From contig JACVJK010000019.1 of assembly GCA_015711955.1 (NCBI GenBank), positions 1 to 33,301 of the forward strand: a stretch of DNA of 33,301 nt. Reading direction: 5' to 3'. The DNA comes from Actinomycetota bacterium (lineage in GTDB: Bacteria > Actinomycetota > Geothermincolia > Geothermincolales > RBG-13-55-18). The position numbers were made by a program, and so were the translations under genes. Of the stretch, positions 1,122-33,164 are shown one piece after another. Each line of letters begins with the position of its first letter. The stretch's first letter is position 1. The notes below the pieces were generated by a model. The model searched no databases, was not told the DNA's origin, and saw nothing but the letters and a program-made list of their open reading frames with translations.

Positions 1122-1129
1122 TGGGCGGT

Positions 1130-1198
1130 CCTTGGCGGGGCTTGACCCGCCAAGGTGGATTCGAGGGCCCGGGGAAGGACTTGACCTCGGGCCCTTTT
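1130..1198 (+). terminator. Tandem hairpins downstream of the thiolase; the second is intrinsic-terminator-like
   Basis: CCTTGGCGGG-GCTTGA-CCCGCCAAGG (1130-1155, perfect 10-bp stem), then GGGCCCG...CGGGCCC followed by TTTT (1165-1198). Confidence 0.65.
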
Positions 1199-1364
1199 CC
1201 GTCGTTCAGGTCCGCTTTACCGGGAGTATAATTAGGCCGCACGGTGATGGGAGGCGAAGCTTTTCGCCCAGGAAGCGAGGACGAACCGGATCGGGATAGG
1301 GTATTTTAGGGTATTTGTCCAGGAGGCGGATCGCGATCTCCGACCTCAGGCATGTAGGAGGGAG

Positions 1365-2351: not shown

Positions 2352-2394
2352 GGTTCAATGGGAAGCGCTGAAGGAAAAGAGAGGGGAAGACGGC

Positions 2395-3510: not shown

Positions 3511-3546
3511 GCCGAGGTCGATACGGGAAGAAAGGACGGCGGAGCG

Positions 3547-4302
3547 GTGAAGCTGGACCCCAGGGCCTATCGGGCCATCTACACCCGGGAAGAGAACCAC
3601 TGGTGGTTCGTGGGAAGGAGGAAGATCCTGGCGAGCCTTTTGAAGCCCCATTTCGTTCCGGGAAAGAAATGGAAGATACTGGATGTGGGTTGCGGGACGG
3701 GAGGGAATTTCCCCTTCCTTCGGACCTACGGCGAAGTGGAGGGTTGCGACTACTCCGAGGAGGCCCTCAGGTATTGTCAGCTGCGAGGGCTTAAAGAGGT
3801 CAGACAGGCAGACATCTGTGACCTGCCCTATCCGGAGCGTTCATTCGACTTGGTGACCTGTCTGGACGTTATCGAGCACATCCGCCTGGATCACGTCGCT
3901 TTCCGGGAGCTCAACCGCGTCCTCGCGGACGGTGGACTGCTCCTGGTGACCTTGCCAGCCATGCCCAGGTTGTACAGCGACTTCGACTGCCTGGCCGGAC
4001 ACCTGCGCCGCTACACTCGTGAGGATGTCGAGAGGATCCTGCGGCGCAGCGGTTTCGAGAAGGTGAGGATGACCTGTTACACCTTCCTGACCCACCCCCT
4101 TGTGAAGGCCTACATAAAGCTAGGCGACTTCACGGGAGGCAAAGCCAGGTACACCCACGGCATGGACACCCTGTTCCCCGGTTCCAACGCCCTGCTCAAA
4201 GGGGTTATGGGTTTGGAGTCCCTCCTAATATCCCGCTTCAACCTTCCCGTCGGGGCATCCCTGGCCGCGCTGGCCAGGAAGGCAGAGCACGTTCCTCGCT
4301 AG
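3547..4302 (+). CDS. Class I SAM-dependent methyltransferase
   Basis: ILDVGCGTGGNFPFL motif I, FDLVTCLDVIEHI; GTG start. Confidence 0.88.
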   Translation: MKLDPRAYRAIYTREENHWWFVGRRKILASLLKPHFVPGKKWKILDVGCGTGGNFPFLRTYGEVEGCDYSEEALRYCQLRGLKEVRQADICDLPYPERSFDLVTCLDVIEHIRLDHVAFRELNRVLADGGLLLVTLPAMPRLYSDFDCLAGHLRRYTREDVERILRRSGFEKVRMTCYTFLTHPLVKAYIKLGDFTGGKARYTHGMDTLFPGSNALLKGVMGLESLLISRFNLPVGASLAALARKAEHVPR

Positions 4303-4515
4303 ACCCGTTCCCCGAAAATGAGGGATGGGTGAGATCCTCAAGTCATCCACCCGTCTTGCCACGCCTCCGATGCCGAATAACCTGGATGTGCCATAAACTG
4401 GTCCTGCGAGGGCTGGGACAAGTTCCGGTCGGCAACATCAAACTCGTGCTTTGCCTCCCGGCGCGTTGAAGTTTAAAATAGTGAAAGTCAAAAGTGTTAA
4501 TCACCAGTTAAGGCA

Positions 4516-4544
4516 TTTACATGTCCGTCAGACGATATTAGTAT
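4516..4544 (+). promoter_or_regulatory. Candidate sigma70-type promoter for the DUF35/thiolase operon
   Basis: TTTACA-17 nt-TAGTAT in an AT-rich stretch about 80 bp upstream of the 4627 start. Confidence 0.4.
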
Positions 4545-4626
4545 TAACCCATGGAGGGCTGCGAGCGGGAATGCCGGCAATCCCCTAAGGTGAGGTGCTT
4601 CGGTCCTTGGGAAAAGGAGGGATGAG

Positions 4627-5088
4627 ATGGAAGCGGAAAAGCTCGAGTTCTTCAATCCCAAAGTGCCCCTGGATTTCCAGTACAACAACCGCGTGGGGAT
4701 CGGCATAGAGCGATACCTGCGGGGCTTGGGCGAAAGGAAGATCCTGGGCTCCAAGTGTCCCCAGTGCGGGAAGGTGGCCGTTCCGCCGCGCACCGTCTGC
4801 GGAAAATGCAGCGCCACCATGGGCGAGTTCGTGGAGGTCTCCCAAGAAGGTACCTTGGAGAACTTCACCGTTGGTCACGTGCAGTTGGTCAAGGGACAGA
4901 GACTGGAAAAGGCCGAATCCCCCTACGTGGTGGGGTTGGTGAGACTGGACGGGGTGGATTCGTTGCTGCTGGCCCGCATTTCCGGGGTGGATCCATCTGA
5001 TCTTAAGGTGGGCATGCGGGTGAAGGCGGTCTGGAGGGATGAGGTTCAGGGCGACTACGCCGACCTGGACCACTTTCAACCGGCATAG
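4627..5088 (+). CDS. Zn-ribbon / OB-fold (DUF35) acyl-CoA-associated protein
   Basis: Zn ribbon CPQCGKVAVPPRTVCGKC followed by an OB-fold-like domain; adjacent to a thiolase. Confidence 0.88.
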   Translation: MEAEKLEFFNPKVPLDFQYNNRVGIGIERYLRGLGERKILGSKCPQCGKVAVPPRTVCGKCSATMGEFVEVSQEGTLENFTVGHVQLVKGQRLEKAESPYVVGLVRLDGVDSLLLARISGVDPSDLKVGMRVKAVWRDEVQGDYADLDHFQPA

Positions 5089-5103
5089 CAGGGGGTGAGA
5101 GGG

Positions 5104-6249
5104 ATGGCGGAAAAGGTCGCAGTGGTCGCTTTTAAGTTGGCTTGCGCCCCAGATTTGCACACCACTCGGGAGAGGTTGGTCTTCAACCTCACCAGGGGTC
5201 TTTTCGACGAGCTGGGCATCGACCGACACGCGATAGATTCCTTCGTGATGAACTCCAACGACTTCTTGGATGGCAGGACCATCTCCACCGTGTTCTTGGA
5301 TGCGCCCTCCGGAGCCTACCTGAAAGACGAGACCAAAGTGGAGATGGACGGGGTTCATGCCGTCATGTACGGATGGATGCGGATAATGTCGGGACAGTAC
5401 GAGACGGCCTTGGTGGTAAGCCTGGCGCTCACCGGTTCCCAGGTCAGCCCTTACGTGTACACACAGTATTCCCTGAGTCCAGCCTACGAGAGGCAGGTGG
5501 GACTGCTCAACGAGCTCTCGGGGGCCGCCTTGCAGGCCAAGGCCTACCTCTCCCGGCGCGGATATTCCGAGGAGTTGCTGGATTTGGTGGCCGCCAAGGA
5601 CTTGGAGCTGGCTGCCAAGAATCCCAGGCAGATAAGGCGATTAGAAAACGCGGGGGTGGAGCGCGTCAGGAGCTCTGGCCCAACTTATGAGCCCCTGCGG
5701 GAGCTGCATTGCTACCCTCCCACCGATGCAGGATGCGTGGTTCTCTTGGCCTCAGAAAAGAAGGCGGCGGAACTCACGGACAAGCCGGTTTGGATCAAGG
5801 GGTTCGGGTCCAGCATCGACACCTACTTCTTCGGGGAAAGGGATCTCACCCGCTCACCGTCGGCTGCGGATGCCGCCAAGAGGGCCTTCTCCATGGCGGG
5901 GTTGACCGATCCCGCGCGCGAGATAGACTTCGCCGAGATCAGCGCCCTCTACGCCCATGAGGAACCGCTTCTGGCCGAGTCCATGGGCCTGCTCCCCGAG
6001 GGGGAGGCGGAGAAGGCATACCGCGCTGGCGACACCCGGCCGGGTGGTTCCCTGCCCATCAACCCCTCCGGCGGCTCATTGGGTGCCCACGCCCCCTGCG
6101 TGGGAGGCCTGATGCGCCTGTGCGAAGCGGTCCTGCAGCTCAGGGGGGAAGCGGGAGACCTACAGCTGGATGGGGCGAGAACGGCGCTGGTGCACGGCCA
6201 GGACGGGATTTGCGCCCAGCAGAATGGCGTGGTCATCCTGGGAGTCTGA
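5104..6249 (+). CDS. Thiolase-fold protein lacking the canonical nucleophilic Cys (thiolase-like / possible aldolase subunit)
   Basis: Thiolase-type C-terminus (LPINPSGGSLGAHAPCVGG); the CxSG segment reads VEMDGVHAV (Cys replaced by Glu in my alignment). ORF opens at GTG 5095; ATG at 5104 is a plausible start. Confidence 0.75.
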   Translation: MAEKVAVVAFKLACAPDLHTTRERLVFNLTRGLFDELGIDRHAIDSFVMNSNDFLDGRTISTVFLDAPSGAYLKDETKVEMDGVHAVMYGWMRIMSGQYETALVVSLALTGSQVSPYVYTQYSLSPAYERQVGLLNELSGAALQAKAYLSRRGYSEELLDLVAAKDLELAAKNPRQIRRLENAGVERVRSSGPTYEPLRELHCYPPTDAGCVVLLASEKKAAELTDKPVWIKGFGSSIDTYFFGERDLTRSPSAADAAKRAFSMAGLTDPAREIDFAEISALYAHEEPLLAESMGLLPEGEAEKAYRAGDTRPGGSLPINPSGGSLGAHAPCVGGLMRLCEAVLQLRGEAGDLQLDGARTALVHGQDGICAQQNGVVILGV

Positions 6250-6270
6250 GGATAAGGAGGTGCTCTGGCC

Positions 6271-7503
6271 ATGCGAAATGTGGGAATAGTGGGCGTGGGT
6301 TATTGCCCCCGCTTTGTGAGCAAGAGGACGGACGTGTGCATCCCCGAGATGGTCTCCGAGGCGGTGGAGGCGGCGTTCGCCGACTGCGGACTGGGGCCCG
6401 AGGACATCGACGCAGTAATTTTCGGGAACATGCATCCCTTCGAGGGGGTGAACATGCCCCACCTGTGGGCGGTGGAACACATGCGGGCCCTGGGCAAGCC
6501 GGTGATGCGTATAGCCACCGGCGGCACCACGGGAATGACCGCTTTTCACGCCGCTTATTATCACATCGTGTCCGGCCTGCATGACGTGGTGATGGTGGTC
6601 ACCTTCGAGAAGCACTCCGAGGGCGACGCCCAGGTGGGCCTGTTGGGAATCATCACCCCGGAGGCGATGGCCATGATGATGGCGGGCATCGACCTCACCG
6701 GCGCCGGAGGTATGGGGGCCCAGGGGGGCGGAAGCGCCGGGGCCATCACCTACCAGGCGGTCTCCTGGATGCACAAATCCGGGGCCACCATCGACCATAT
6801 CGACGCCATCGCTGCCATGGAGCGCCGCAACGCGGCCCGCAATCCCTATGCTCATTTGAAGGATCCCGAGGCCACGCCGGAGAAGATCGCCAAGACCCCC
6901 ATGATCTCCTATCCGGTCCGCTTCGGCCACGTGTGTCCCACCACCGACGGGGCGACCGTCTGCATCCTGGCCAGCGAGGAGAGGGCGGCCAAGATAGCCG
7001 ATAAGGTTGCCTGGGTATGGGGAGTGGCCAGCTGCGCCTCTGACCCCACCACCGGCAACCTGATCGAGGGCCTCATCACCGACCCGGCGGAACAGCGCCA
7101 GTGCGTCATCGCTGCCCAAGAGGCCTACAAGCGAGCCGGCATCGAGGATCCCAAGAAGGAGATCGACTACGTGGAGATATACAACGGCTTCGCCCATCAG
7201 ACCCTCATGTACCTGGAGCTGGTGGGCATGTGCGAGGTGGGAGAGGCCCACAAGCTGCTGGAGAAGGGCGAGCTGGAGATCAGCGGTAGGCTTCCCGTGA
7301 ATGCCTCTGGGGGCGTGGTGAGCACCAACGCCATCGGCACCTCGGCCCTGAACCGGGTCACCGAGTGCGCCCTGCAGATCATGGGGAAGGCGGGCGAGCG
7401 CCAGGTGGAGAAGGAGGTGCACAAGGCGCTGGCCCACGGTTGGGGAGGCCTTATGCAGTATGTGAGCATCACCATCCTGGCGGACAAGCCCAAGAAGCTC
7501 TGA
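6271..7503 (+). CDS. Thiolase family protein lacking the canonical nucleophilic Cys
   Basis: SCP2-thiolase-like over its length (LPVNASGGVVSTNAIGTSAL); the nucleophile segment reads ATGGTTGMTAF. Confidence 0.82.
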   Translation: MRNVGIVGVGYCPRFVSKRTDVCIPEMVSEAVEAAFADCGLGPEDIDAVIFGNMHPFEGVNMPHLWAVEHMRALGKPVMRIATGGTTGMTAFHAAYYHIVSGLHDVVMVVTFEKHSEGDAQVGLLGIITPEAMAMMMAGIDLTGAGGMGAQGGGSAGAITYQAVSWMHKSGATIDHIDAIAAMERRNAARNPYAHLKDPEATPEKIAKTPMISYPVRFGHVCPTTDGATVCILASEERAAKIADKVAWVWGVASCASDPTTGNLIEGLITDPAEQRQCVIAAQEAYKRAGIEDPKKEIDYVEIYNGFAHQTLMYLELVGMCEVGEAHKLLEKGELEISGRLPVNASGGVVSTNAIGTSALNRVTECALQIMGKAGERQVEKEVHKALAHGWGGLMQYVSITILADKPKKL

Positions 7504-15559: not shown

Positions 15560-17059
15560 TCAGCAACCCTCCTCCAGCCAGTTCAGGCAGCGCTCCACCG
15601 CTTTTTTCCAGCCCTTTTTCAGGGCGGCCATCTCCCTTATTTTCTCCGTACGAGGCAAGAACCTTCTTTCTTCCTCCCAGGTGGAGGAGATCTCCTCCAG
15701 GTCCTTCCAGTACCCCACCGCCAGCCCTGCCAAAAGGGCCGCCCCCAAAGAGGTGGTCTCTTTCACCACCGGACGGACCACTGGCACTCCCAGCAGGTCA
15801 GCCTGATATTCCAGCAGCAGATCCATGACGCTGGCCCCTCCGTCCACCCTGAGCTCCCTTATGGGGATCCCGGTCTCCTCCACCATCAGTTGGATGATGT
15901 CGTCGGTCTGCAAGGCCATGGACTCGATGACCGCTCGCGCAATATGAGCCCTGCCCGTTCCTCGGGTCATCCCTATCATCAGTGCCCTGGCGGACGGATC
16001 CCAATAGGGGGCCCCCAGTCCCACGAAGGCCGGGACGAAGAAAACCCCCTCACTGCTTTCCACGCTCCTGGCCATGGGCTCTACCTCCTGGGCCTCGCCG
16101 ATGATTCCCAGGCCATCCCTGAGCCAGTTGATGGCCGCGCCGGTGACGAATATGGAGCCCTCCAGGGCATAGGTGGTCCGTCCACCTATGCTCCAGGCCA
16201 CCGTGGTGAGGAGGCCCCGCTTTGACAGGGTGGGGCTTTCTCCAGTGTTCATGAGCACGAAGCTGCCCGTACCGTAGGTGTTCTTGGTCATGCCGGGATG
16301 GAAGCAGGCTTGACCGAACAGGGCCGCCTGCTGGTCGCCGGCGATGCCCGATATCGGGGCCCCTATCCCCAAAAAGGAGTCGGGGTCGGCATGTCCGAAG
16401 ACGCCGCTGGAATCCCTCACCTGCGGGAGCATGGAGAGGGGAACCCCTAAGATGTCCGCCAACTCCGCGTCCCAGGCTAGCTGGTGGATGTTGAACAGGA
16501 GAGTGCGGCTGGCATTGGAAGCGTCGGTAGCGTGTAACCTTCCCCCGGTCATGCGGAAGAGGAGCCAAGAGTCCACCGTGCCGAAGGCGAGCTCCCCCGC
16601 CTCCGCCCTCTTGGCGATATCGGGCTCGTTCTCCATCACCCAGGACAGTTTGGTGCCTGAGAAATAGGGGTCGAGCAATAAACCGGTTCTCTGGCGGAAG
16701 GTATCCTGGTGGCCGAGTTCCTTGAGTTTGCGGCATATGTCTGCGCTGCGCCGGCACTGCCATACTATGGCTCGCCTCACCGGCCTTGCGGTTTCCCGGT
16801 CCCAGATTATCGAGGTCTCCCTCTGATTGGTGATTCCCACCGCCGCTACCTGACCAGGGTCTATGTTCCCCGTTTCCAGGACCTCGCGCACGCCCTCGAG
16901 GGTCACCTCCCATATCTCCTCGGGATCATGTTCCACCCAGCCGGGCCGGGGATAATACTGGGGGAACTCGCGGTTGGCGATGGCAATGGGCTTTTGGTCC
17001 CTGCCGTAGGCCACCACCTTGGTGCCGGTGGTCCCCTGGTCGATGGCCAGCACGTACAT
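15560..17059 (-). CDS. glpK: Glycerol kinase
   Basis: MYVLAIDQGTTGTKVV, PGWVEHDPEEIW, TNQRETSIIWDRETARPVRRAIVWQCRRS, AGDQQAALFGQACF, ALEGSIFVTGAAINWLRD. Confidence 0.95.
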   Translation of the reverse strand: MYVLAIDQGTTGTKVVAYGRDQKPIAIANREFPQYYPRPGWVEHDPEEIWEVTLEGVREVLETGNIDPGQVAAVGITNQRETSIIWDRETARPVRRAIVWQCRRSADICRKLKELGHQDTFRQRTGLLLDPYFSGTKLSWVMENEPDIAKRAEAGELAFGTVDSWLLFRMTGGRLHATDASNASRTLLFNIHQLAWDAELADILGVPLSMLPQVRDSSGVFGHADPDSFLGIGAPISGIAGDQQAALFGQACFHPGMTKNTYGTGSFVLMNTGESPTLSKRGLLTTVAWSIGGRTTYALEGSIFVTGAAINWLRDGLGIIGEAQEVEPMARSVESSEGVFFVPAFVGLGAPYWDPSARALMIGMTRGTGRAHIARAVIESMALQTDDIIQLMVEETGIPIRELRVDGGASVMDLLLEYQADLLGVPVVRPVVKETTSLGAALLAGLAVGYWKDLEEISSTWEEERRFLPRTEKIREMAALKKGWKKAVERCLNWLEEGC

Positions 17060-17080
17060 CCCCTCACCCCCTCACTGGTT

Positions 17081-18619
17081 TCAGGTCTCCTCGACTTCCG
17101 TCCCCCCAGGTGCGGATCCCTCCTCTTTCTGGGAGATTTGGGGGCGCAGGTCCACTATCCTCCGTTCCCTGCCCGCCCTCTCCAAGCCCAGGCGATCCAG
17201 CAGGCGGTTCAGCCCCATGAAGACCACTTTGGAAGGGGTAATTTCCACTTCTTTCTGGAGCAGGTCCACGAGTTCCTTTTCTAAATGCTTCTTCATGATC
17301 CCCTCCACAGGGGTGACGTAGAGGATTATCTCGTCGAGGTCGTAGGGGTCGTCGTTGCGCTTCCTGATCTCCAACTGCCACTCCAGCACGTCCTTGTGGC
17401 CCGAGAGCAGGGGATAGAAGGCGTTGAGATCCACCAGGGTACCTTTCAGTTTGGTAAGCTGGAATTCCTTGTATTCCGAAGCCCGGGTGATGGTGATGCC
17501 CAAGCGGGGCAGGCTCCTGCCGCAGTATGGGCAAGGTTCGTAACTTATCCCCTCCCGGACCAGGTCACCGGTGCGGAAGCGCAGCAGGACGCTCCCGCGC
17601 CAGTCCAAAGAGGAGTAGACTACCTCACCGCTTTCTCCCTCGTCTACCCTGTCGCCTGTCTCGGGGTCGATGATCTCCACGACCTCCATATCGGGGAATA
17701 AGTGGTAACCGGAGCTTTTCTCCTTCGACAGTGCGGAAGGACGGCACTCGCTCCAGGCCACCCTTCCCTCGGTGAAGCCGTAGGTGGCCATCACCGCCGC
17801 TCCCTCCGCCCCCACCCTTTTCAGGAGGTATTGGATCTTGTCCTTCAATCCCTCGGGGAGTGCGTCGCCTCCCAACATCACGGTGTGGAGGCGAGAGAGG
17901 TCTCTTCCCTCCTCCGCCGCCCTTCTCAGCAGGTGGTAAGCATAGGAAGGGGTGGCGGTGAGCACGTTGCCTCTCAACTTTTCCAGGGCATCGAGGATGC
18001 GCTCCGTGCCCAATATCCTTCCTCCGCCGGTGTGCAGGGCAGGCATCCCCGCCGCCTCGGCGGCGAAATATGTCATCCAAAACGCCAGATGAGGGGCGAA
18101 GGGAAAGGCGTTTATGAGTACGTCCTCCCTTTTCAGTTCCGCCAGTTCGAAGAGTCGGCGTCCGGCTTCCCTGACCCGAGCGAGGTCGTGACGGGTGTAG
18201 AAGATGGGGGTGGGAAGGGCGGTCCTGCCGATGGTGAAGTGGGTGTGCACCGGCAGATACTCTTCCTGGAGCAGCTGAGTGTAACCCTTCCTGCCCCGGG
18301 TGGCCCGCAACCAGGCGTGTTTCATCCTAATGGCAGGAGAGATCCCCTTGAACTTCTCGGGATCGGGCTGGAGAAGGAGGGAAAGGGGCAACTCCGGATT
18401 GTCGGGGAGGGGGGCTATGTCCGCCTTAGTGGTGAAGGGTATGCAATCTATCTCTTCCAGTCGACTGATGTGCCTCGGCTTCAGCCTTTGGTGTTTGAAC
18501 AGTCTCCGGTAGAAAGGGCTGAAAGGATAAACCTGCTCCCTCAGGTAGCGAAGAAACCTTTGCTCCTGGGCCAGACGGTAGAGTCGATAAGGCATCCGAT
18601 CCCATAAGGTTTTACTCAT
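17081..18619 (-). CDS. Phenylacetate-CoA ligase (PaaK)-like adenylate-forming enzyme
   Basis: SPFYRRLFK N-terminal signature, ATYGFTEGRVAWSEC, FRTGDLVREGISYEPCPYCGRSLPRLG. Confidence 0.83.
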   Translation of the reverse strand: MSKTLWDRMPYRLYRLAQEQRFLRYLREQVYPFSPFYRRLFKHQRLKPRHISRLEEIDCIPFTTKADIAPLPDNPELPLSLLLQPDPEKFKGISPAIRMKHAWLRATRGRKGYTQLLQEEYLPVHTHFTIGRTALPTPIFYTRHDLARVREAGRRLFELAELKREDVLINAFPFAPHLAFWMTYFAAEAAGMPALHTGGGRILGTERILDALEKLRGNVLTATPSYAYHLLRRAAEEGRDLSRLHTVMLGGDALPEGLKDKIQYLLKRVGAEGAAVMATYGFTEGRVAWSECRPSALSKEKSSGYHLFPDMEVVEIIDPETGDRVDEGESGEVVYSSLDWRGSVLLRFRTGDLVREGISYEPCPYCGRSLPRLGITITRASEYKEFQLTKLKGTLVDLNAFYPLLSGHKDVLEWQLEIRKRNDDPYDLDEIILYVTPVEGIMKKHLEKELVDLLQKEVEITPSKVVFMGLNRLLDRLGLERAGRERRIVDLRPQISQKEEGSAPGGTEVEET

Positions 18620-23115: not shown

Positions 23116-23163
23116 TTGACGGAAATAGTCAGGGACTTTACGATAAGACTGACCGGTTGGTCT
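23116..23163 (+). promoter_or_regulatory. Sigma70-type promoter overlapping a TetR-type operator palindrome
   Basis: TTGACG-17 nt-TACGAT (23116-23144), followed by imperfect palindrome AGACTGACCGGTTGGTCT (23146-23163; 7 of 9 arm positions symmetrical) covering the predicted +1. Confidence 0.7.
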
Positions 23164-23180
23164 AATCACGCCTCGGGGGA

Positions 23181-23858
23181 ATGCGAAAGAGTCTGGGGCT
23201 GCGGCGCAACCCGTCCAAGGACGAAAGGGAAAAGACCTTGAAGGAGGCGGCGCTCAAGGTCTTTTCCCAAAAGGGCTACCATAGGGCCACCATGTCCGAG
23301 ATAGCCCTAGAGGCAGGCTACGGCAAAGGAACCCTCTACTGGTATTGGAGGTCCAAGGAAGACCTCTATTTCTCCCTCATAGAGGACATGCACCGGGAGT
23401 TCCTCCGGGTAGTGGAGGAATGCGTTGTCGGGGATGAGCCCGCCTTTTGCAAGCTTGAAAAAATGGGCCATCAGGTGGTGGACCTCTATTACAGGCTGCG
23501 CGATTACTGCAAACTCTCCTGGAAGATGAGGGCTGAGGAATTGGAGACCTTTTCCCCTCAATACGTGGAGAGGCTCCGGGACTACATAAAAAGGACCAAG
23601 GAGGCCCTCGCCACCATCATGAGGCAGGGGGTCGAGGAGGGACTCTTCCCACCCCATGACCCCTATTACCTCGCCTGCATTCTCATGGGGCTCATCGAGG
23701 GCCTGGAGATCCAGTGGCTGGAGGATTCCCAGGCCTTTGACCTGCGCAAGGGCATGCAAATAATTCTCGATTTCTTCGGAAAGCACTTGATCCCCGCCGC
23801 GGAATGTCTCCCGCGGGAGGACAAAATGGGCATCATCGGCGAGGAGGTGGATCCATGA
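23181..23858 (+). CDS. TetR/AcrR family transcriptional regulator
   Basis: AALKVFSQKGYHRATMSEIALEAGYGKGTLYWYWRSKEDLYFSLIEDM helix-turn-helix. Confidence 0.93.
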   Translation: MRKSLGLRRNPSKDEREKTLKEAALKVFSQKGYHRATMSEIALEAGYGKGTLYWYWRSKEDLYFSLIEDMHREFLRVVEECVVGDEPAFCKLEKMGHQVVDLYYRLRDYCKLSWKMRAEELETFSPQYVERLRDYIKRTKEALATIMRQGVEEGLFPPHDPYYLACILMGLIEGLEIQWLEDSQAFDLRKGMQIILDFFGKHLIPAAECLPREDKMGIIGEEVDP

Positions 23859-25075
23859 AGACCCTGGCGGTACTGGGAGGGTGCGGCGCAGTGGGCGGCA
23901 CCGCGGTGAGGGTGCTGGCCACCACCCGGTATTTCGACCAAATTTACATAGCCGACCGGGAGGTGGAGGAGGCCCGCAGGATGGCAGAGGAACTGGGAAA
24001 GGAACGCTTCGAGGCCTATGCCTTGGACGCGGATGACCCACAAAGCGTGAGGGGGATCATGGGCAGGGCAGACTTGGTCCTCAACTGCGTGGGTCCCTTC
24101 TATCACTACGGGCCGATCCTGCTGAGGGCGGCCATCGACATGGGAGTCGACTACGTGGACATATGCGATGACATGGACGCCACCGCCGAGATGCTGGAGC
24201 TCGACGGGGAGGCTAAGGCAAAGGGCGTTTCGGCTCTGGTGGGTATGGGGAGCTCGCCGGGCATGGCCAACCTGTTGGTTCGCTTCTGTGCCGAGCGCAT
24301 GTTGGACCAGGTGGATTCGGTGGACATCTATCATGCCCACGGCGGCGAGCCGGTGGAGGGACCGGCGGTGATAAAACACCGCTTCCATTCCATGGAGATA
24401 GATATCCCGGTTTTCTTGGACGGGGAATTCCGCACGGTACGCCTGTTCGAGGATAGCGGGAGAGCCCTGGAAGAAGAGACCGAGTTCAAGAACATCGGCA
24501 CATATCCCGTTTACGCCTATCCCCACCCGGAGACCATCACCCTTCCCAAGTACATCAAGGGGGTGAGGAGGGTCACCAATTTGGGACTGGTCCTCCCCGT
24601 CGCCTACGCGGAGCTCATAAAGAGCATGGTGAGACTGGGGCTGACCTCGGACGAGCCCCTGGATGTGCAGGGCCAAAAGGTCATTCCCCGGGAGTTCGCC
24701 GTCGCCTTCGTCCTCTCCCGAAGGCAGAAGCTGCTCGAAGAGGCGGGCATCACCGAGCCCATGGGATGCTTGAAAATCGTGGTGAAAGGGCTGAAGGACG
24801 GCGAGCCCCATACCTATGTCTTCTCCATGACTTCCAAGGGAATGGGTATGGGCGAGGGCACGGGAATACCGGCCGCCTTGGGTGCCATAGCCATGAGCGA
24901 GGGCATGATAGCCCTCAAGGGCGTCTTCCCTCCCGAAGCAGCTCTGGATCCCATGGACATGATAAGGCTAGCTGGAGAGGTCATCAGGTCCTCGGGCAAG
25001 GGCGAGTCTGTTCCCCTCTACATCGACCACATAGATCAGCACGGGAGGACGGAATCCCTGGATCTCAAGTTCTGA
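23855..25075 (+). CDS. Saccharopine dehydrogenase-like NAD(P)-binding oxidoreductase
   Basis: MKTLAVLGGCGAVGGTAVRVLA Rossmann motif, VLNCVGPFYHYG, GVDYVDICDD, GMGSSPGMANLL; ATGA overlap with the TetR stop. Confidence 0.87.
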   Translation: MKTLAVLGGCGAVGGTAVRVLATTRYFDQIYIADREVEEARRMAEELGKERFEAYALDADDPQSVRGIMGRADLVLNCVGPFYHYGPILLRAAIDMGVDYVDICDDMDATAEMLELDGEAKAKGVSALVGMGSSPGMANLLVRFCAERMLDQVDSVDIYHAHGGEPVEGPAVIKHRFHSMEIDIPVFLDGEFRTVRLFEDSGRALEEETEFKNIGTYPVYAYPHPETITLPKYIKGVRRVTNLGLVLPVAYAELIKSMVRLGLTSDEPLDVQGQKVIPREFAVAFVLSRRQKLLEEAGITEPMGCLKIVVKGLKDGEPHTYVFSMTSKGMGMGEGTGIPAALGAIAMSEGMIALKGVFPPEAALDPMDMIRLAGEVIRSSGKGESVPLYIDHIDQHGRTESLDLKF

Positions 25076-25084
25076 CGAGGCGCC

Positions 25085-26668
25085 TTGACGACCGTGGAGG
25101 GAGTCGTGGGAGAAGGCAAGTTGATCCTCAGCTACGACGTGGGCACCGGAGGCGTTAAGGCCGCCCTGGTGGACCTTTCCGGGGAGGTGATAGCCAAAAC
25201 CTTCCAGGCTTACCCCCTTCACCATCCCAAGCCGCACTGGGCGGAACAGGATCCGGAGGATTGGTGGAAGGCGGTCTGCGTCGCCACTGAGCAGCTCATG
25301 TCCCAAGCGGGGGTGGCGCCGGACAAGGTGGCGGGCCTGGGCTTTGCCTGCCAGATGATGGGATTGGTGGCGGTGAACCCAAAAGGCAGACCCCTCCGGC
25401 CGGCGGTCATATGGATGGATAACCGGGCCGAGGACCAGGCGAAGAGGCTGGTGAGGAAGATCGGTGGGCCCCGGGTGGCCATGCTTCTCGCCGGGGCCGT
25501 GCCATCGGGGAAGGACGTGGTGTGCAAGCTTCAATGGATGAGGGAGGAGGAGCCCCGGGTATTCCGGGAGACCCACAAATTCCTGGACGTCACCGGTTAT
25601 CTCGTGTGTAGGGCCACAGGAGAGATGGTCATGGACCACACGGCCGGAGGGGTCACGGGGTTGCTCGATTCCAAAACCCGGGATTGGTCCCGTTTTCTGG
25701 CGAGGATACTCGGGGTTCCGCTAAGCAAGCTGCCGAAGTTGAAGGCCTGCACCGAGGTGGTGGGAGGTCTCAAGAGGGAAGCTGCCCTCGAGATGGGCTT
25801 GGTTCCCCGTTTGCCAGTGATCGCAGGCATGGGTGATGTGCCCGCCGCCGCCACCGGTTCGGGCGCCCTGGAAGATGGGGACGCTCATTATTATCTGGGG
25901 ACCTCGGGGTGGTTGTGCGTGAGCGTCAGAAGGCCGGTGAACATCGGAAGGCACGGAATGGTTTCGGTGGTTTCGCCGGACCCGGAGATGTTCTTGCTCA
26001 TAGGGGAGACGGAGACGGCCGGGGCATGCCTCAGGTGGTTCGCGGAACACCTCTCAAGGCCCGAGGAGAGGGAAGCCGCGGCTCAGAGGGGTGGGGAGAT
26101 GGCCATTTTCGAGGTTCTGGACGAGGTGGCGGGAGAGGTGGAGCCAGGAGCCGGAAGACTGCTGTTCGCACCCTGGATGTTCGGGGAGAGGTCCCCCATC
26201 ACCGATGTGTCGCTGCGCAGCGCCTTCGTGAACCTCTCACTGGAACACGGGAGGGAGCATCTACTCCGATCCATCTACGAAGGTGTGGCCTTCAACTGTC
26301 GTTGGCTCCTGGAGGTGGCTGAAAGGAAAGGTTACCCTTGCCGCACGTTGAGGGCCATAGGGGGAGGGGCTCGCAGCGACCTGTGGATGCAGATACTCTC
26401 CGACGTCACCGAGAGGACGGTGGAAGCGGTGAAGAACCCGCAGGAGGCGGGGGCCGTGGGATGTGCCTTGGCGGTGGCGGTGGGATTGGGAAGGCTGAGG
26501 AGGTATAGGGACATAAAGGGCACCGTTAGGTTGAGGAGGACCTTCAGGCCACGTCGGGAGTACTGCCGGGTATATGGGGAGATGTACGCGTCCTTCAAGT
26601 GTCTTTACGAGAGCATAAGGGGCATATGCCGGGAACTTAACGAGGGGGGGAAAGCCTGTGAGGTTTAG
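25085..26668 (+). CDS. FGGY-family carbohydrate kinase (xylulokinase-like)
   Basis: LSYDVGTGGVKAALVDLSGEV, HWAEQDPEDWWKAV, RPAVIWMDNRAEDQA, RAIGGGARSDLWMQILSDVTERTVEAV; TTG start. Confidence 0.9.
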   Translation: MTTVEGVVGEGKLILSYDVGTGGVKAALVDLSGEVIAKTFQAYPLHHPKPHWAEQDPEDWWKAVCVATEQLMSQAGVAPDKVAGLGFACQMMGLVAVNPKGRPLRPAVIWMDNRAEDQAKRLVRKIGGPRVAMLLAGAVPSGKDVVCKLQWMREEEPRVFRETHKFLDVTGYLVCRATGEMVMDHTAGGVTGLLDSKTRDWSRFLARILGVPLSKLPKLKACTEVVGGLKREAALEMGLVPRLPVIAGMGDVPAAATGSGALEDGDAHYYLGTSGWLCVSVRRPVNIGRHGMVSVVSPDPEMFLLIGETETAGACLRWFAEHLSRPEEREAAAQRGGEMAIFEVLDEVAGEVEPGAGRLLFAPWMFGERSPITDVSLRSAFVNLSLEHGREHLLRSIYEGVAFNCRWLLEVAERKGYPCRTLRAIGGGARSDLWMQILSDVTERTVEAVKNPQEAGAVGCALAVAVGLGRLRRYRDIKGTVRLRRTFRPRREYCRVYGEMYASFKCLYESIRGICRELNEGGKACEV

Positions 26669-26709
26669 CTGAATAAAGAGGAAAGGAAGGCGGTTTTCGC
26701 GAGAAGGGG

Positions 26710-28053
26710 GTGATCATCGTGCTCCACTACGAGGCGCAGCCAAGGGGTCTGCCGGAGATCGTCTACGACGACGATTACATCGTGGCCACTTATTACACCG
26801 CGCTGCCCCGGGACCTGATCATGTACCACCTGGCGCCATTTCTGGCCATAGAACAGTCCACGGGGACCTGGACGCCGGTTCCAGGGGAGACGCCGGAGGT
26901 GAGGGCCAAGCATGTGGCCAAGGTCATAGGCATTTACGAGGTCCCCAATTTCGAGTTCGAGGTACCCAGGGACGTGGTGGAACGCACTTACGTGGTGCAG
27001 ATAGCCTTCCCGTATCGCAACATAGAGAGCCAGATACCCATGCTCCTCACCGCGGTGGTGGGTAACATATCCTCCGGGGGCAAGATAAAGCTTCTGGACT
27101 TGAGCTTTCCCAAGAAGTACACCGACGGATTCCAGGGCCCCAAGTTCGGGATAGAAGGGATCAGGAAGATCCTGGGGGTGTACGACCGGCCGCTGTTGAA
27201 CAACATGATCAAGCCCTGCACCGGGTATTCCTGTGAGTTGGGGGAAAAGTTGTTCTACGAGGCCGCCTTGGGGGGCTGTGACTGCGTCAAGGACGACGAA
27301 CTTTTGGCGGACATGGAGTTCAACCGGGTAGTGGATCGGGTCAAGCGCTACATGGCCATGGAGAAGAAGGTCTATGAGGAGACCGGGGAACGGACCCTGT
27401 ACACCGTTAATGTCTCCGGACCCATCCCGCACATGTTCGAGGTGGCAAAAAGGGCGGTGGATGCGGGGGCCAACGCCATCATGGTCAATTACTTGGCGGT
27501 GGGCTTTCCCGCCCTGCAGGCGTTGGCGGAGGACCCCGACATCAACGTCCCCATCCTGGCTCACATGGACTGCGCTGGCGCCCTATACGAGTCTCCCATC
27601 TCAGGGATCTCCTCCCACTTGGTGATGGCCAAACTGCCCAGGTTGGCGGGAGCCGACATCATCGTATTCCCGGCTCCCTACGGAAAAGCGCCCTATCTGA
27701 AGGACAGGTTCCTGGTCACCGCCGATACCATGCATTACCCCATGCACGGGATCAAACCCACCATGCCCATGCCCTCCGGGGGTATCACTCCCCAGGTGGT
27801 TCCCGTGTGCGTGGGGGACATAGGCTGGGACATAATGATCGGTTCCGGTGGGGGCATCCATGCCCACCCCATGGGGCCGGTGGCGGGGGCCAGGGCGTTC
27901 CGCCAGGCCATCGAAGCCACCATGAGGGGGATCCCGTTGGAGGAGTACGCCAAGGACCATCAGGAACTGGCGGTGGCCCTCGGGCTGTGGAGCGGGATCT
28001 TTAGGGAGACCACGGCGGAGACTGGGATCGAGGCCAAGGCCGAGCATTTGTGA
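26710..28053 (+). CDS. RuBisCO large-chain-like protein (form IV / RLP)
   Basis: RuBisCO-fold landmarks: EQSTGTWTPV, VVGNISSGG, NMIKPCTGYS, GGCDCVKDDE, PAPYGK, MPSGGI, IGSGGGIHAHPMG; several CO2-fixing residues substituted. Confidence 0.88.
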   Translation: MIIVLHYEAQPRGLPEIVYDDDYIVATYYTALPRDLIMYHLAPFLAIEQSTGTWTPVPGETPEVRAKHVAKVIGIYEVPNFEFEVPRDVVERTYVVQIAFPYRNIESQIPMLLTAVVGNISSGGKIKLLDLSFPKKYTDGFQGPKFGIEGIRKILGVYDRPLLNNMIKPCTGYSCELGEKLFYEAALGGCDCVKDDELLADMEFNRVVDRVKRYMAMEKKVYEETGERTLYTVNVSGPIPHMFEVAKRAVDAGANAIMVNYLAVGFPALQALAEDPDINVPILAHMDCAGALYESPISGISSHLVMAKLPRLAGADIIVFPAPYGKAPYLKDRFLVTADTMHYPMHGIKPTMPMPSGGITPQVVPVCVGDIGWDIMIGSGGGIHAHPMGPVAGARAFRQAIEATMRGIPLEEYAKDHQELAVALGLWSGIFRETTAETGIEAKAEHL

Positions 28054-28127
28054 GCCAAGGTCGAGGTCTGGTCCTGTTTTTTGCGAACCCAACCGTTTTG
28101 GGAAAAAACGGCCCCCCCTTGCCCTTG

Positions 28128-28154
28128 CCGTTTCCCAACCTTGGGCACGGTTTT
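28128..28154 (+). terminator. Terminator-like hairpin after the RLP operon
   Basis: CCGT-TT-CCCAACCTTGGG-C-ACGG-TTTT; a second small hairpin CCGTTTT-GGGAA-AAAACGG lies at 28093-28111. Confidence 0.45.
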
Positions 28155-28260: not shown

Positions 28261-29028
28261 TTGAGGTTTGACGTCGATCGTTCATCCGGTGCTTCCGGAG
28301 TGTTCAGGCGCGAGGGGGACAGGGTGCTCATCGATGCCCGTTCCCTCCATTACCGGGAGCTAAACGGCATGGTTCAGAAAGCATCTCGGGAGGGCGTGGG
28401 GGATATCGAGATCCACCGAGTTCGTGGGCATCCGTATATCGGCACGGGCTTGAGGGGCAAACTGAGAATAAGGGTATGGGGTGACGTGGGGGACGACCTG
28501 GGCGCGCTCATGGACGGCCCGGAAATCGAGGTGGAGGGCTCTGCCGCCAAGGACTTGGGTAACGGCATGAGGGGGGGAAGGATCGTGGTCCGGGGTTGGG
28601 CGGGAGAAGGGGCTGGGAAGGGCATGAAAGGGGGGCGCGTGTTCGTCGGAGGGGACGTGGGGCCCAGGGCAGCCCTTCACATGCAGGAGCTTTGGTATGG
28701 AAGTCCGGTCATGGTAGTGGGAGGGCGCGCCGGCGACCTGCTGGGGGAGTATATGGCAGGAGGAATGGTGATTGTTCTCAACCGAAACATGGAGGAGGGC
28801 GAGGGGTATCCCACTGGGATCGGGTACGGCATGTCCGGTGGGAGCATATATTTCCGCGGCCTCTTGCGGGCCGACCAGGTGGCGGAATCTGCCAGGATCG
28901 AGGTGGTGGAGGGGGAGGGTCTTTGGGAGATTGCCGACAATGTCCGCGAGTTCTGCCAAATCTTCGGTGGGGATCCCGAGATGCTCCTGGCGGGAAAATA
29001 TTGCCGCATCTCCTCCGCCCGGATTTGA
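28261..29028 (+). CDS. Stand-alone GXGXG-domain protein (glutamate synthase alpha C-terminal / GltB3-like)
   Basis: Repeated G-rich beta-helix: GDVGDDLGALMDGPEIEVEGSAAKDLGNGMRGGRIVVRGWAGEGAGKGMKGGRVFVGG...; TTG start with GAGGAGG upstream. Confidence 0.82.
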   Translation: MRFDVDRSSGASGVFRREGDRVLIDARSLHYRELNGMVQKASREGVGDIEIHRVRGHPYIGTGLRGKLRIRVWGDVGDDLGALMDGPEIEVEGSAAKDLGNGMRGGRIVVRGWAGEGAGKGMKGGRVFVGGDVGPRAALHMQELWYGSPVMVVGGRAGDLLGEYMAGGMVIVLNRNMEEGEGYPTGIGYGMSGGSIYFRGLLRADQVAESARIEVVEGEGLWEIADNVREFCQIFGGDPEMLLAGKYCRISSARI

Positions 29029-29119
29029 CCTCAAAAGGCCTCACGGCACGTGATTGGGAACCCTTAGACACGGTAGCGCCCTTTCGGCGAGGCACTCGCT
29101 CCAATCGGGACCTTCACCC

Positions 29120-29168
29120 ATAACCCCTCCGTAACCGGGATTTAACTTTTCCGAAAAAACCAAGTAAC
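29120..29168. promoter_or_regulatory. Helically phased pentamer array upstream of glnA (candidate nitrogen-regulator site)
   Basis: ATAAC-n6-GTAAC-n6-TTAAC-n6-GAAAA-n6-GTAAC: five pentamers at exact 11-bp spacing, 72-121 bp upstream of the glnA ATG. Confidence 0.5.
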
Positions 29169-29240
29169 CATAGCCATCTACCATGGACGTGAGAGGCGAG
29201 TGGTCACGCACATAAGGGGCAAAGGTGAAAGGAGGAGAAA

Positions 29241-30581
29241 ATGGCCAGCGAGAGAGAAGAAGCCAAGGAGTACGTGATCAGGATGGCTCATGAGAACAAC
29301 GTGCGCTTCGTGAGGCTCTGGTTCACCGACATCCTGGGGTTCCTCAAGAGCTTCGCCATCACCATTGGCGAGTTGGAGGAGGCCTTGGAGGACGGGATGG
29401 GGTTCGATGGATCCTCCATAGAGGGTTATGCCCGCATCGACGAGAGCGACATGATCGCCTTGCCCGACCCCAACACCTTCTGCATACTTCCCTGGCGCCA
29501 TCGGGACGGCCACGCGGTAGCCCGCATGTTCTGCGACATACTTAAGCCCGGGGGGGAGCCCTACGAGAAGGATCCCCGCTTCGTCCTAAAGAGGAACCTG
29601 GAAGAGGCCAAGAAGATGGGTTACACCTTTTACGTGGGCCCCGAGCTGGAGTTCTTCTACTTCAGGTCTTCCGAGAAACCTGAGGTGCTGGACCGGGGCG
29701 GTTATTTCGACCTAACCCCTCTGGATCTCGCCTCCGACCTGCGGCGGGAGACCATCTTGGCCTTGGAGGAGATGGGTATCGAGGTGGAGTACAGCCACCA
29801 CGAGGTGGGTCCCAGTCAGCACGAGATAGACATGCGCTACGCCGATGCCCTCACCATGGCCGACAACGCCATGACCTTCCGCTTGGTGGTGAAGGAGGTG
29901 GCCTTGATGCACGGCGTGCACGCCACCTTCATGCCCAAGCCCCTTTACGGCGAGAACGGATCGGGCATGCACACCCACATGTCCCTTTTCCAGGGCGACC
30001 GTAACGCGTTCTTCGACCCCGATGACCCCTATCACCTCTCCGACGTGGCCAAGAAGTTCATCGCTGGACTGCTGACACATGCCCCGGAGATAACCCTGGT
30101 GTGCAACCAGTGGGTGAATTCCTACAAACGTCTGGTCCCTGGGTACGAGGCCCCCGTCTACATCACCTGGGCGGTGCGGAACCGCTCTGACCTGATAAGG
30201 GTACCTGAATACAAGCCGGGGAAAGAGAAGGCCACCCGCATAGAGTTCCGATCGCCTGACCCGGCCTGCAACCCTTACCTGGCCTTCTCTTGCATGCTGG
30301 CGGCGGGCCTGGAGGGCATCAAGAAGGGATATGAGCTACCTCCCATGGTCAACCGTAACGTTTACGAGCTCACCGAGAAGGAGAGGGAGGAATTGGGCAT
30401 CAGGCAACTTCCGGAAGACCTATGGGAGGCCATCCTGATCGCCGAGAAGAGCGAGTTGCTCCGGAGGACCTTAGGGGATGCGGTGTTCGAATCCCTCATA
30501 GAGAACAAGAAGATCGAATGGGAGAGGTATAGGGCTCAGGTCACGGAGTGGGAACTCGTCAACTACCTGCCCGTGCTGTAG
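29241..30581 (+). CDS. glnA: Type I glutamine synthetase
   Basis: LWFTDILGFLKSF, MGFDGSSIEGYARIDESDM, GPELEFFYF, NGSGMHTHMSLF, NSYKRLVPGYEAPVYITW, RIEFRSPDPACNPYLAFS. Confidence 0.96.
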   Translation: MASEREEAKEYVIRMAHENNVRFVRLWFTDILGFLKSFAITIGELEEALEDGMGFDGSSIEGYARIDESDMIALPDPNTFCILPWRHRDGHAVARMFCDILKPGGEPYEKDPRFVLKRNLEEAKKMGYTFYVGPELEFFYFRSSEKPEVLDRGGYFDLTPLDLASDLRRETILALEEMGIEVEYSHHEVGPSQHEIDMRYADALTMADNAMTFRLVVKEVALMHGVHATFMPKPLYGENGSGMHTHMSLFQGDRNAFFDPDDPYHLSDVAKKFIAGLLTHAPEITLVCNQWVNSYKRLVPGYEAPVYITWAVRNRSDLIRVPEYKPGKEKATRIEFRSPDPACNPYLAFSCMLAAGLEGIKKGYELPPMVNRNVYELTEKEREELGIRQLPEDLWEAILIAEKSELLRRTLGDAVFESLIENKKIEWERYRAQVTEWELVNYLPVL

Positions 30582-30837: not shown

Positions 30838-32133
30838 TCACTCCCGCTCCCTCAATGACTCCAAAAAGGCCTCCAGTCGGGTGAGGATCTGGCCCTCTTG
30901 CAGTTCCCTCTCGTCTACGCAGTCTCCCTCTATAACCAGAACGGGTATGCCTCTTTGCTGGAATCGCATTCGAATGGTTTGGGCGGCCCCGCAGCTCTGC
31001 CGGCATCCCCAGTGGTTGAAATGGATGGCGCCCTGGACTCGGTAAGCCACGGCCATGGCTTGTAGGTGCGCGATTCGCCTTTCGGCTTCCCCCACCAAGA
31101 AATGACCGGCGGTCTTTTGCGCCAGGGAGACAAAGGGATGCCGGGGATCCATCGCTTTCCAGTATGGATGGGTATACTCCTCGCAAACTATCCGGGCTCC
31201 ATGAGCCGTGATGGTATCGAAGATGGAATGTTTATACCAGGGCTTAAGATGCATCCACATGATGCGCTTGGCTCCCTCGCCCGGCCTGCCCCGCTCCGTG
31301 ACCTCTTCCAGAAGGGTCTGGTAGAATCTCGCTCCCTCACGGGTGCCCATGCAGGCGGCGAGCACGCTCACGTAGCCCATGACGTCCTTTCCGTCCAGGA
31401 GGCAGTCCGTCTCCCTTCTCAACCTCTCCAATTCCGCGTGGTACTTCAGGGCTTGGTTGGAGAGCTCGATGGCCTCCGCAAGGCCTTTCCGCAACTCCCT
31501 TCCCTCTCTTCCCGCCAGCGAGGCCAAGGAGTGAGCCACCCTCTCCATCTCTGCTGCCACAAACTCGACCCTCTTTTCGCCCCGGATAAGGGGGACCTCC
31601 AGCGCGAAGTGGGGAACCCGGTACAGATGGGAGAGGTAACGAAAGGACAGGACCGCCGAGTCGCAGGGGTAGTTCACCGAGATGAAGGCGTGGGGGCGAG
31701 GAAGCAGGTCCTCCAAGGCGGCCCCCAGGAGGCAACGGTGATAGGAACAGGCATCGGGGGAGAACCCGGCCTCCCCTGCCCGGTCCAGGAAGCGGGAGGC
31801 TAAGCCGGCGGAAGCGATGACCGCGGACGCCATCTCCGGATAAAAGGGAAGACAACCGCTTCCGTGGACCAGCTCGGAGGGCACCAGGAGATTACACCAC
31901 ACCACGGGCCTTCTTCCCAGATAGGCGTCCCTGGTCATCCTCACGAAGGCGTTCAGGGAGATCCGGTCAGCCTTCCAGCGGGTCTTGTACAGGGGCGAAC
32001 GGGAGAGGATTTCCACCGTTTCCCACAACATCCGGGACCTCATGAGTTGGGGAGAGAGTCGGTGGAGGAAACGCGACTTGAGGGCCTCGAGCAAGGTTTT
32101 CCCGTTCTCACCCTCATCGCGCAATGGCTTCAC
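30838..32133 (-). CDS. 2-hydroxyacyl-CoA dehydratase subunit (HgdA/HgdB / BcrB/BcrC superfamily)
   Basis: GRRPVVWCNLLVPSELVHGSGCLPFYPEM, CSYHRCLLGA, AIHFNHWGCRQSCGAAQTIRMRFQQRGIPVLVIEGDCVDERE. Confidence 0.88.
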   Translation of the reverse strand: MKPLRDEGENGKTLLEALKSRFLHRLSPQLMRSRMLWETVEILSRSPLYKTRWKADRISLNAFVRMTRDAYLGRRPVVWCNLLVPSELVHGSGCLPFYPEMASAVIASAGLASRFLDRAGEAGFSPDACSYHRCLLGAALEDLLPRPHAFISVNYPCDSAVLSFRYLSHLYRVPHFALEVPLIRGEKRVEFVAAEMERVAHSLASLAGREGRELRKGLAEAIELSNQALKYHAELERLRRETDCLLDGKDVMGYVSVLAACMGTREGARFYQTLLEEVTERGRPGEGAKRIMWMHLKPWYKHSIFDTITAHGARIVCEEYTHPYWKAMDPRHPFVSLAQKTAGHFLVGEAERRIAHLQAMAVAYRVQGAIHFNHWGCRQSCGAAQTIRMRFQQRGIPVLVIEGDCVDERELQEGQILTRLEAFLESLRERE

Positions 32134-33164
32134 CCCCTTGAGCCCCTGGACAGCATCTCCAGAAAGGCCTCCACCCTAGTGACCACCTGCCCGACGTGAG
32201 CGTCCAGGTAGTCGCTCTCCAGGCGCAGCGTCTTTACGCCCTCTTCCTCCAGCACCTTTTCCAGCAAGGGGAACTCGTAGATATAGGGGTCACAGAATTT
32301 CAGGGTGACGTATATGAGGCCTGCTGCCCTCGCCTTTCGCAGCCTCTCGATCAGGTCTTTCGTTCGTCCCTGCCAGCCCTGCATCCTGGCGCAATGGTGT
32401 CTTCGCAGGTAAGCGGTGGCCAGTGCGCGGTAGGGATCATCATCTGCCTCCAGTGCCGCGGAGGCCAAAAAGGGCCTATCGCCGTTGCACACGTCGAGGA
32501 TGACCACTTGGGCACCTGCCTGTTCCAAGGCCCTGAGGATGCCGTTTGGGTTGAGGATGTTGCCCACCAGCGCGACGGGCACGCGTGCCCCGGAGGTTCT
32601 CTCTTCGTCCTTTGGGGGATCGATTTCCGGCTGGGACGACTGGAGGGCAAGGCTGGTTTTAACTTTTTCCACCCCGGATAACTTGGGGGCATGTCGGAGA
32701 TAGATCTGCCTCCGTTCCTCCCTCCTTCGGCTGGCCTCGATGACCGCTTCCTGGGTTACCTGGGTGGCGAAACGCTCCTCCAACTTTTCCGCGAGTCGCT
32801 TCATCTCGTCTGTGAGGATCTCCACCTCCCGAGGCGAGCTTCCTCGTGGCAAGTCCATCAGGTAGACGAAGGACTCGGGAAAGAGGTAGGACCACGCATC
32901 GTAGAGGCGCCGCAAGGCGTCGCAGGCGTTTACGAAGACCGCGTGGTGGTGCCCCGGCGGCAAGCGTAGTCCCTCTGCGAGGCAGGACCTCACATAGGGG
33001 CAAAGGGAGGGATGGAGGTAGGCGTCGGCATCCTCGGCGTCCTCGGCCACGCCGGTGGCGCGGCGATGATCTAGGCCGGCAGCCTCCAAGATCTCCACCG
33101 GCGTGTAACCGCAGAACCAGGTCACCTCCGGAGTCGCTTCCCCACGCTCCCTCAACTCGCTCAC
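32130..33164 (-). CDS. 2-hydroxyacyl-CoA dehydratase, second subunit
   Basis: WFCGYTPVEILEAAGL, PSLCPYVRSC, VFVNACDALRRLYDAW, GLIYVTLKFCDPYIYEFPLLEKVLEEEGVKTLRLESDY; 4-bp overlap with the downstream subunit. The 5' end lies inside a duplicated segment. Confidence 0.88.
   Translation of the reverse strand: MSELRERGEATPEVTWFCGYTPVEILEAAGLDHRRATGVAEDAEDADAYLHPSLCPYVRSCLAEGLRLPPGHHHAVFVNACDALRRLYDAWSYLFPESFVYLMDLPRGSSPREVEILTDEMKRLAEKLEERFATQVTQEAVIEASRRREERRQIYLRHAPKLSGVEKVKTSLALQSSQPEIDPPKDEERTSGARVPVALVGNILNPNGILRALEQAGAQVVILDVCNGDRPFLASAALEADDDPYRALATAYLRRHHCARMQGWQGRTKDLIERLRKARAAGLIYVTLKFCDPYIYEFPLLEKVLEEEGVKTLRLESDYLDAHVGQVVTRVEAFLEMLSRGSRG

Follow-up and report, generated by a model that had tools for sequence, protein, structure and literature searches.

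Which reaction does a RuBisCO-like protein (RLP) catalyse when its gene is followed through evolution by a kinase of the FGGY family? This question is raised by a four-gene operon in a 33,301-nucleotide stretch of DNA (hereafter the window), which comes from an actinobacterial MAG (G000), with Ca. Geothermincola and Ca. Solincola as its named relatives. A preliminary description of the window had tentatively assigned the operon to an undescribed sugar-acid pathway in which the substrate is oxidised, phosphorylated and finally decarboxylated or isomerised. Few RLP reactions have been assigned so far, and the RLPs of these anaerobes have been published either as proteins of unknown function (PMC7325909) or, by default, as enzymes of methionine salvage, in which type IV genes of uncultured groups were placed without testing (PMC7495880). 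In the literature outside subscription papers and preprints, no paper joining an RLP with an FGGY kinase was found.

Operon layout and local regulation

The genes for a TetR-type repressor, a saccharopine-dehydrogenase-like enzyme (SDH), the FGGY kinase and the RLP lie in this order on the forward strand and form one operon with a single promoter (Table 1). The open reading frames and domain matches bear out the four genes and the families that had been named previously. The TetR and SDH genes overlap by ATGA, as described, but the gaps of 9 and 41 bp given for the other two junctions are probably rather about 30 bp (SDH to kinase) and about 50 bp (kinase to RLP). The mechanical reading frames begin at TTG 25085 for the kinase and at GTG 26710 for the RLP. 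The true starts are probably the GTG codons listed in Table 1, because the homologues begin later and a Shine-Dalgarno-like stretch also favours the later starts.

Table 1 Features of the operon (positions in the window)
Feature	Position	Strand	Basis and remarks
Promoter-like element TTGACG-17-TACGAT	23116..23144	+	Consensus scan; weak alone
Predicted TetR operator palindrome, 21 bp, AAGACTGACCGGTTGGTCTAA	23145..23165	.	Conserved in relatives, 5' of the TetR gene
TetR-family repressor gene	23181..23858	+	Operon gene 1; PF00440 (E=1.1e-18)
SDH, NAD(P) enzyme, probable C-N oxidoreductase	23855..25075	+	PF03435 (2.3e-20) and PF16653; profile and fold matches
FGGY-family kinase	25106..26668	+	PF00370/PF02782; likely start GTG 25106
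Form IV RLP	26719..28053	+	PF00016 (8.4e-47) and PF02788; likely start GTG 26719

Relatives carry TTGACG or TTGACA at the position equivalent to that of the promoter-like element (e.g. L041, L043, L045). The predicted operator lies directly 3' of the -10-like hexamer and recurs near-identically in relatives at the same place 5' of the TetR gene, sometimes as a pair; for instance, two copies are present at the operon in G012 and G014. A search allowing two mismatches located the operator in 13 of 13 related genomes at the TetR operon and at no second site, and further regulon members were thus not found in these genomes. The chance expectation of the operator within the window is 0.01. The confinement of the operator to one operon argues that TetR is most likely a dedicated, autoregulated repressor. 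The best NCBIfam match of the repressor is a FadR-type TetR, and this match is weak (70 bits versus a cut-off of 200). At the 3' end, the terminator-like hairpin that had been proposed behind the RLP gene could not be upheld: the region folds no better than shuffled sequences (z +0.87) and a terminator scan gives no site on the forward strand there.

Several other genes of the window are worth recording. A gene with a GXGXG (glutamate-synthase-like) domain and glnA follow 3' of the operon (28261-30581); both are also present in G001 and absent from this place in the other relatives examined. On the reverse strand, a second FGGY kinase gene adjoins a gene for an AMP-binding enzyme (15560-18619), and two HGD-D genes (2-hydroxyacyl-CoA dehydratase type) without close NCBIfam assignment overlap by four bases (30838-33164). 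Moreover, three thiolase-like genes and a gene for a ChsH2-type OB-fold protein on the forward strand (6-7503) suggest a CoA cluster of the sterol or lipid type.

Partners of the RLP gene

The RLP is encoded in 28 of the 30 genomes of the class (60-93% identity) and in few genomes of the phylum outside the class, and the FGGY gene adjoins it in all 28. A genome-wide scan, comprising the best 80 of 539 candidate relatives, yielded 80 named loci with 59-93% identity. The bacterial loci among these best 80 belong to Actinomycetota, Chloroflexota, Caldisericota/Cryosericota, Acidobacteriota, Bacillota and deltaproteobacterial and spirochaete MAGs, and the archaeal ones to Bathyarchaeota, Baldrarchaeota, Hermodarchaeota, Theionarchaea and Ca. 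Methanolliviera; the taxon labels of some loci may be blurred by MAG binning errors. An FGGY gene is linked in 72 of the 80 loci (again the best 80 of 539), always on the same strand and in 62 cases at a distance of at most 300 bp. Three of the eight loci without it end at a contig border within 500 bp. The pairing, for which a neighbourhood check had been suggested, is hence conserved across phyla and in both domains, and the absence of conserved linkage that would have spoken against the proposal was not observed. As many anaerobic bacteria and some archaea keep the two genes adjacent, the operon marks a widespread metabolic pathway.

Neither a transporter nor a downstream enzyme recurs consistently in the annotated neighbourhoods of the RLP. 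Genes for an acyl-CoA synthetase, an acyl-CoA dehydrogenase and a G3P acyltransferase occur near some loci, and the lipid link that they might indicate was set aside because these genes are common. A HAD phosphatase (cluster c47) follows the aminotransferase gene in two Bacillota loci and lies near a third locus in a Chloroflexota genome, which is too few for it to be regarded as a partner.

The SDH gene is exchangeable. Of 89 annotated loci, 31 have a linked SDH and another 31 a linked class-III aminotransferase, and no locus has both. In a curated set of 81 loci, from which duplicates and one doubtful case had been dropped and to which two partial ones had been added, the respective counts are 29, 29 and 0, with the genes at equivalent positions. 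The hypergeometric probability of the zero overlap is 4e-8, a value that ignores the kinship of the phylogenetically non-independent loci. On the RLP tree, the label switches eight times, seven of which are forced by starred branches, corresponding to at least 7-8 swaps. The replacement of the SDH by a class-III aminotransferase is new here. The linked aminotransferases fall into a group resembling GSA aminomutase (n=22), an omega-type group (n=8) and one outlier. In a Baldrarchaeota locus (L127:2864-8296), a class-III aminotransferase and a HisC-like class I/II aminotransferase precede the FGGY-RLP pair in one row.

The SDH contains an NAD(P) domain and the C-terminal fold of the family (PF03435, PF16653; 8deb, 8h4z, 3abi). 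Its model (pLDDT 90) is most similar to carboxyspermidine, lysine and saccharopine dehydrogenases, and all best profile and fold matches are enzymes acting on C-N bonds. Because the SDH resembles such enzymes and alternates with the aminotransferases at the same loci, we infer that both do the same job, namely the conversion of an amine to a carbonyl compound or the reverse. The oxidation that had been envisaged as the first step is thereby redirected towards an amine, and deamination seems more likely than the oxidation of an alcohol. The exclusivity of the two enzymes holds at the level of the locus only, since G020 and G021 have the aminotransferase at the RLP locus and an SDH elsewhere in the genome. 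Four genomes of the class without a linked SDH possess one elsewhere (54-61% identity). The SDH gene of G020, which is not linked to the RLP, adjoins a second kinase gene of the same type as the operon FGGY, and this indicates that SDH and kinase belong together. No recognisable shared pathway enzyme was found in the neighbourhoods of the unlinked SDH genes of G019 and G021. A HemL above the family cut-off was not found in G020-G022, and the linked aminotransferase of these genomes may have a role in haem synthesis.

Active sites of the RLP and the kinase

The RLP has the domains of the RuBisCO large chain (PF00016/PF02788) and the catalytic replacements of a form IV protein. In all of the best 80 of 539 homologues, the residues E60, T65, W66, N123, K175, K201, D203, E204, H294, K334, G380, G381, G403 and G404 (spinach numbering) are kept, and S379 is kept in 78 of these best 80. 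Likewise, K177 is replaced by C, R295 by M and H327 by V and position 296 is D in all of the best 80 of 539, with H298 changed to A, S or T. Judged by these residues, the metal-carbamate site and the first phosphate site (P1) are intact, and the second phosphate site (P2) is lost and nonpolar. The protein is no true RuBisCO of forms I-III, as the P2 ligands R295, H298 and H327 are missing and the rubisco_III score (275 bits) is below the cut-off of 497. A second gene of the RuBisCO superfamily was not found in 14 genomes.

In the RLP tree, the clade is monophyletic (support 98/98) and branches on the MtnW side, outside all clades of assigned function among the reference sequences (forms I-III, MtnW, photo-type RLP, OiaX, DUF1537-linked RLPs and R. 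palustris RLP1), of which the sampling is limited and some branches are long. Together with the FGGY-RLP linkage, this placement bears out the earlier idea of a conserved module in which an FGGY kinase takes the place of the DUF1537 protein. The nearest structures to the RLP model (pLDDT 80) are those of MtnW. The RLP clade, OiaX and the DUF1537-linked RLPs all have K at position 334, where MtnW has S and the photo type has R; in this small comparison, K334 tracks carboxyl chemistry and suggests that the RLP may be a decarboxylase. A separate group of RLPs with about 42% identity (L060:4133-11819 and L061:5939-11795) has T334, Y295 and G60 and probably another function; its neighbours encode UPF0261, PEP-hydrolase-like (L060), xylose-isomerase-like and MFS proteins, and no FGGY kinase.

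The kinase has the FGGY_N and FGGY_C domains, and the catalytic Asp251 is invariant in 62 of 62 linked kinases. However, the position of His78 of XylB, which we take to be the sugar-binding residue of xylulokinase, is occupied by L, I or M in most of them, changing the pocket motif from QMHG to QM(L/I/M)G. The XylB score of the kinase is 316 bits, below the cut-off of 380.

Possible pathways and known systems

The reading that we put forward, although tentatively, is a locally regulated module that deaminates its substrate, phosphorylates it and passes the monophosphorylated ketone, which would have a partly nonpolar tail, to the RLP for enolisation or decarboxylation. Gene order, operator conservation, linkage, the SDH/aminotransferase exchange and residue conservation are the observations from which we infer each chemical step, the step order and the substrate. 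The SDH, or elsewhere the class-III aminotransferase, would turn an amino group into a carbonyl group, and the kinase would phosphorylate the neighbouring hydroxymethyl group to give a 1-phospho-2-oxo compound. The RLP would bind the single phosphate in its P1 site and, with Mg2+ on the carbamylated Lys201, enolise the substrate. It would then probably break or form the bond to a carboxyl group, as in an OiaX-like decarboxylation of a beta-oxo acid, assisted by Lys334, Glu60 and Asn123. Compared with a sugar phosphate, the substrate should be less polar at its distal end. Its arrival, or that of a derivative, would lift the repression of the operon that TetR exerts at its one operator. The decarboxylation of a beta-oxo acid made from a hypothetical beta-amino-gamma-hydroxy acid would account for all the residue and gene evidence together; sphingoid-type amino alcohols as substrates are a guess. 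However, SDH-family enzymes often run in the aminating direction. Moreover, an amine might be bound by Asp296, which is invariant in the best 80 of 539 homologues and lies in the former P2 site; deamination would then not be the first step. The wider claim that anaerobic bacteria and archaea share an as yet undescribed, amine-derived pathway, with a new functional class of RLPs decarboxylating or even carboxylating a nonpolar-tailed monophosphorylated ketone, is on the doubtful side.

The catabolism of a sugar acid, in which the SDH oxidises a hydroxyl group, the FGGY enzyme phosphorylates the keto acid and the RLP decarboxylates or isomerises the product as in D-apionate degradation, is unlikely. 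The combination of kinase and RLP does resemble the oia-type clusters with DUF1537, the FGGY family includes gluconokinases (NCBIfam match of 259 bits) and decarboxylation can still be entertained, because Lys334 is kept as in OiaX. However, the SDH fold and its replacement by an aminotransferase indicate C-N chemistry, and the RLP loci lack a consistently linked sugar-acid dehydratase, aldolase or transporter. Since the kinase also lacks the sugar-binding His of XylB and the RLP has lost R295 and acquired a nonpolar P2 site, the label of a sugar-acid substrate is at most partly supported.

It is rather improbable that the module is biosynthetic, with an amino product obtained when the SDH or aminotransferase aminates the phosphorylated ketone made by RLP and kinase. 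Among characterised proteins, the SDH is most closely related to carboxyspermidine dehydrogenase, which works reductively in the aminating direction; moreover, GlnA is encoded 3' of the operon in the genus of the window and Asp296 could hold the amine. However, a TetR operator dedicated to one operon speaks for induction by a substrate, and no further conserved biosynthetic partner is present. A variant of methionine or 5-methylthioadenosine salvage, in which the RLP acts like MtnW or as a methylthioribulose-1-phosphate isomerase and the FGGY enzyme as a methylthiopentose kinase, is disfavoured and still more improbable. A methylthio group would fit the nonpolar tail pocket, MtnW is the nearest family and MtnA is encoded in 14 of 14 genomes tested. 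However, the residue, linkage and clade evidence argues against it: the general base Lys98 of MtnW is Asn in the RLP clade, which lies outside the MtnW clade, and mtnA is located away from the operon in the genomes tested; in five of them its neighbour belongs to the class II aldolase family, an arrangement that recalls the MtnA/aldolase (DHAP) shunt or MtnB-type salvage. Finally, a carboxylase adding CO2 to a monophosphorylated ketone is very improbable, as E60, N123, K175, K201, K334, S379 and the P1 residues are those of RuBisCO but K177, R295, H298 and H327 are lost, K334 also serves decarboxylation in OiaX and no carbon-fixation partner is linked.

The invariance of the active site, the constancy of the kinase partner and the exchange of SDH and aminotransferase make the RLP clade amenable to experiment: "function unknown" becomes a short list of assays. 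The clade also bears on the diversification of RuBisCO chemistry in anaerobic bacteria and archaea. Among known systems, a form IV RLP from the Hakuba actinobacterium, which belongs to a related anaerobic clade, has been reported as of unknown function, and the part of that article dealing with it names an epimerase gene and a DeoR-sensor-domain gene as neighbours and mentions neither FGGY nor SDH (PMC7325909). The Vibrio nigripulchritudo plasmid RLP (L146:11797-14458, NZ_AP027047.1) has an FGGY gene directly 3' and represents a second, independent RLP-FGGY pairing; however, it belongs to a different clade, as sister to R. palustris RLP1 (3qfw; support 100/99), has R334 and lies in a cluster with a sugar ABC transporter and a split transketolase. 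MtnW, the 2,3-diketo-5-methylthiopentyl-1-phosphate enolase (form IV YkrW), is closest in sequence (36-39% identity) and fold and shares the nonpolar P2 residues and the Lys201 carbamylation motif. In contrast, MtnW has Lys98, Gly60 and Ser334 where the RLP clade has Asn (N123 in the best 80 of 539), Glu and Lys, the clades are separate, no mtn gene occurs in the annotated neighbourhoods, and the scores are below the cut-offs (TIGR03332, 323 versus 513.6 bits; PRK09549, 375 versus 409). OiaX, the 3-oxo-isoapionate-4-phosphate decarboxylase, and the DUF1537-linked RLPs are placed, like the RLP of the operon, with an oxidoreductase and a kinase and keep Lys334. However, they form a distant clade (OiaX score 187 bits versus a cut-off of 700), their kinase is a DUF1537 protein rather than an FGGY enzyme, and they keep R295, and in most cases H327, both of which the clade of the window has lost.
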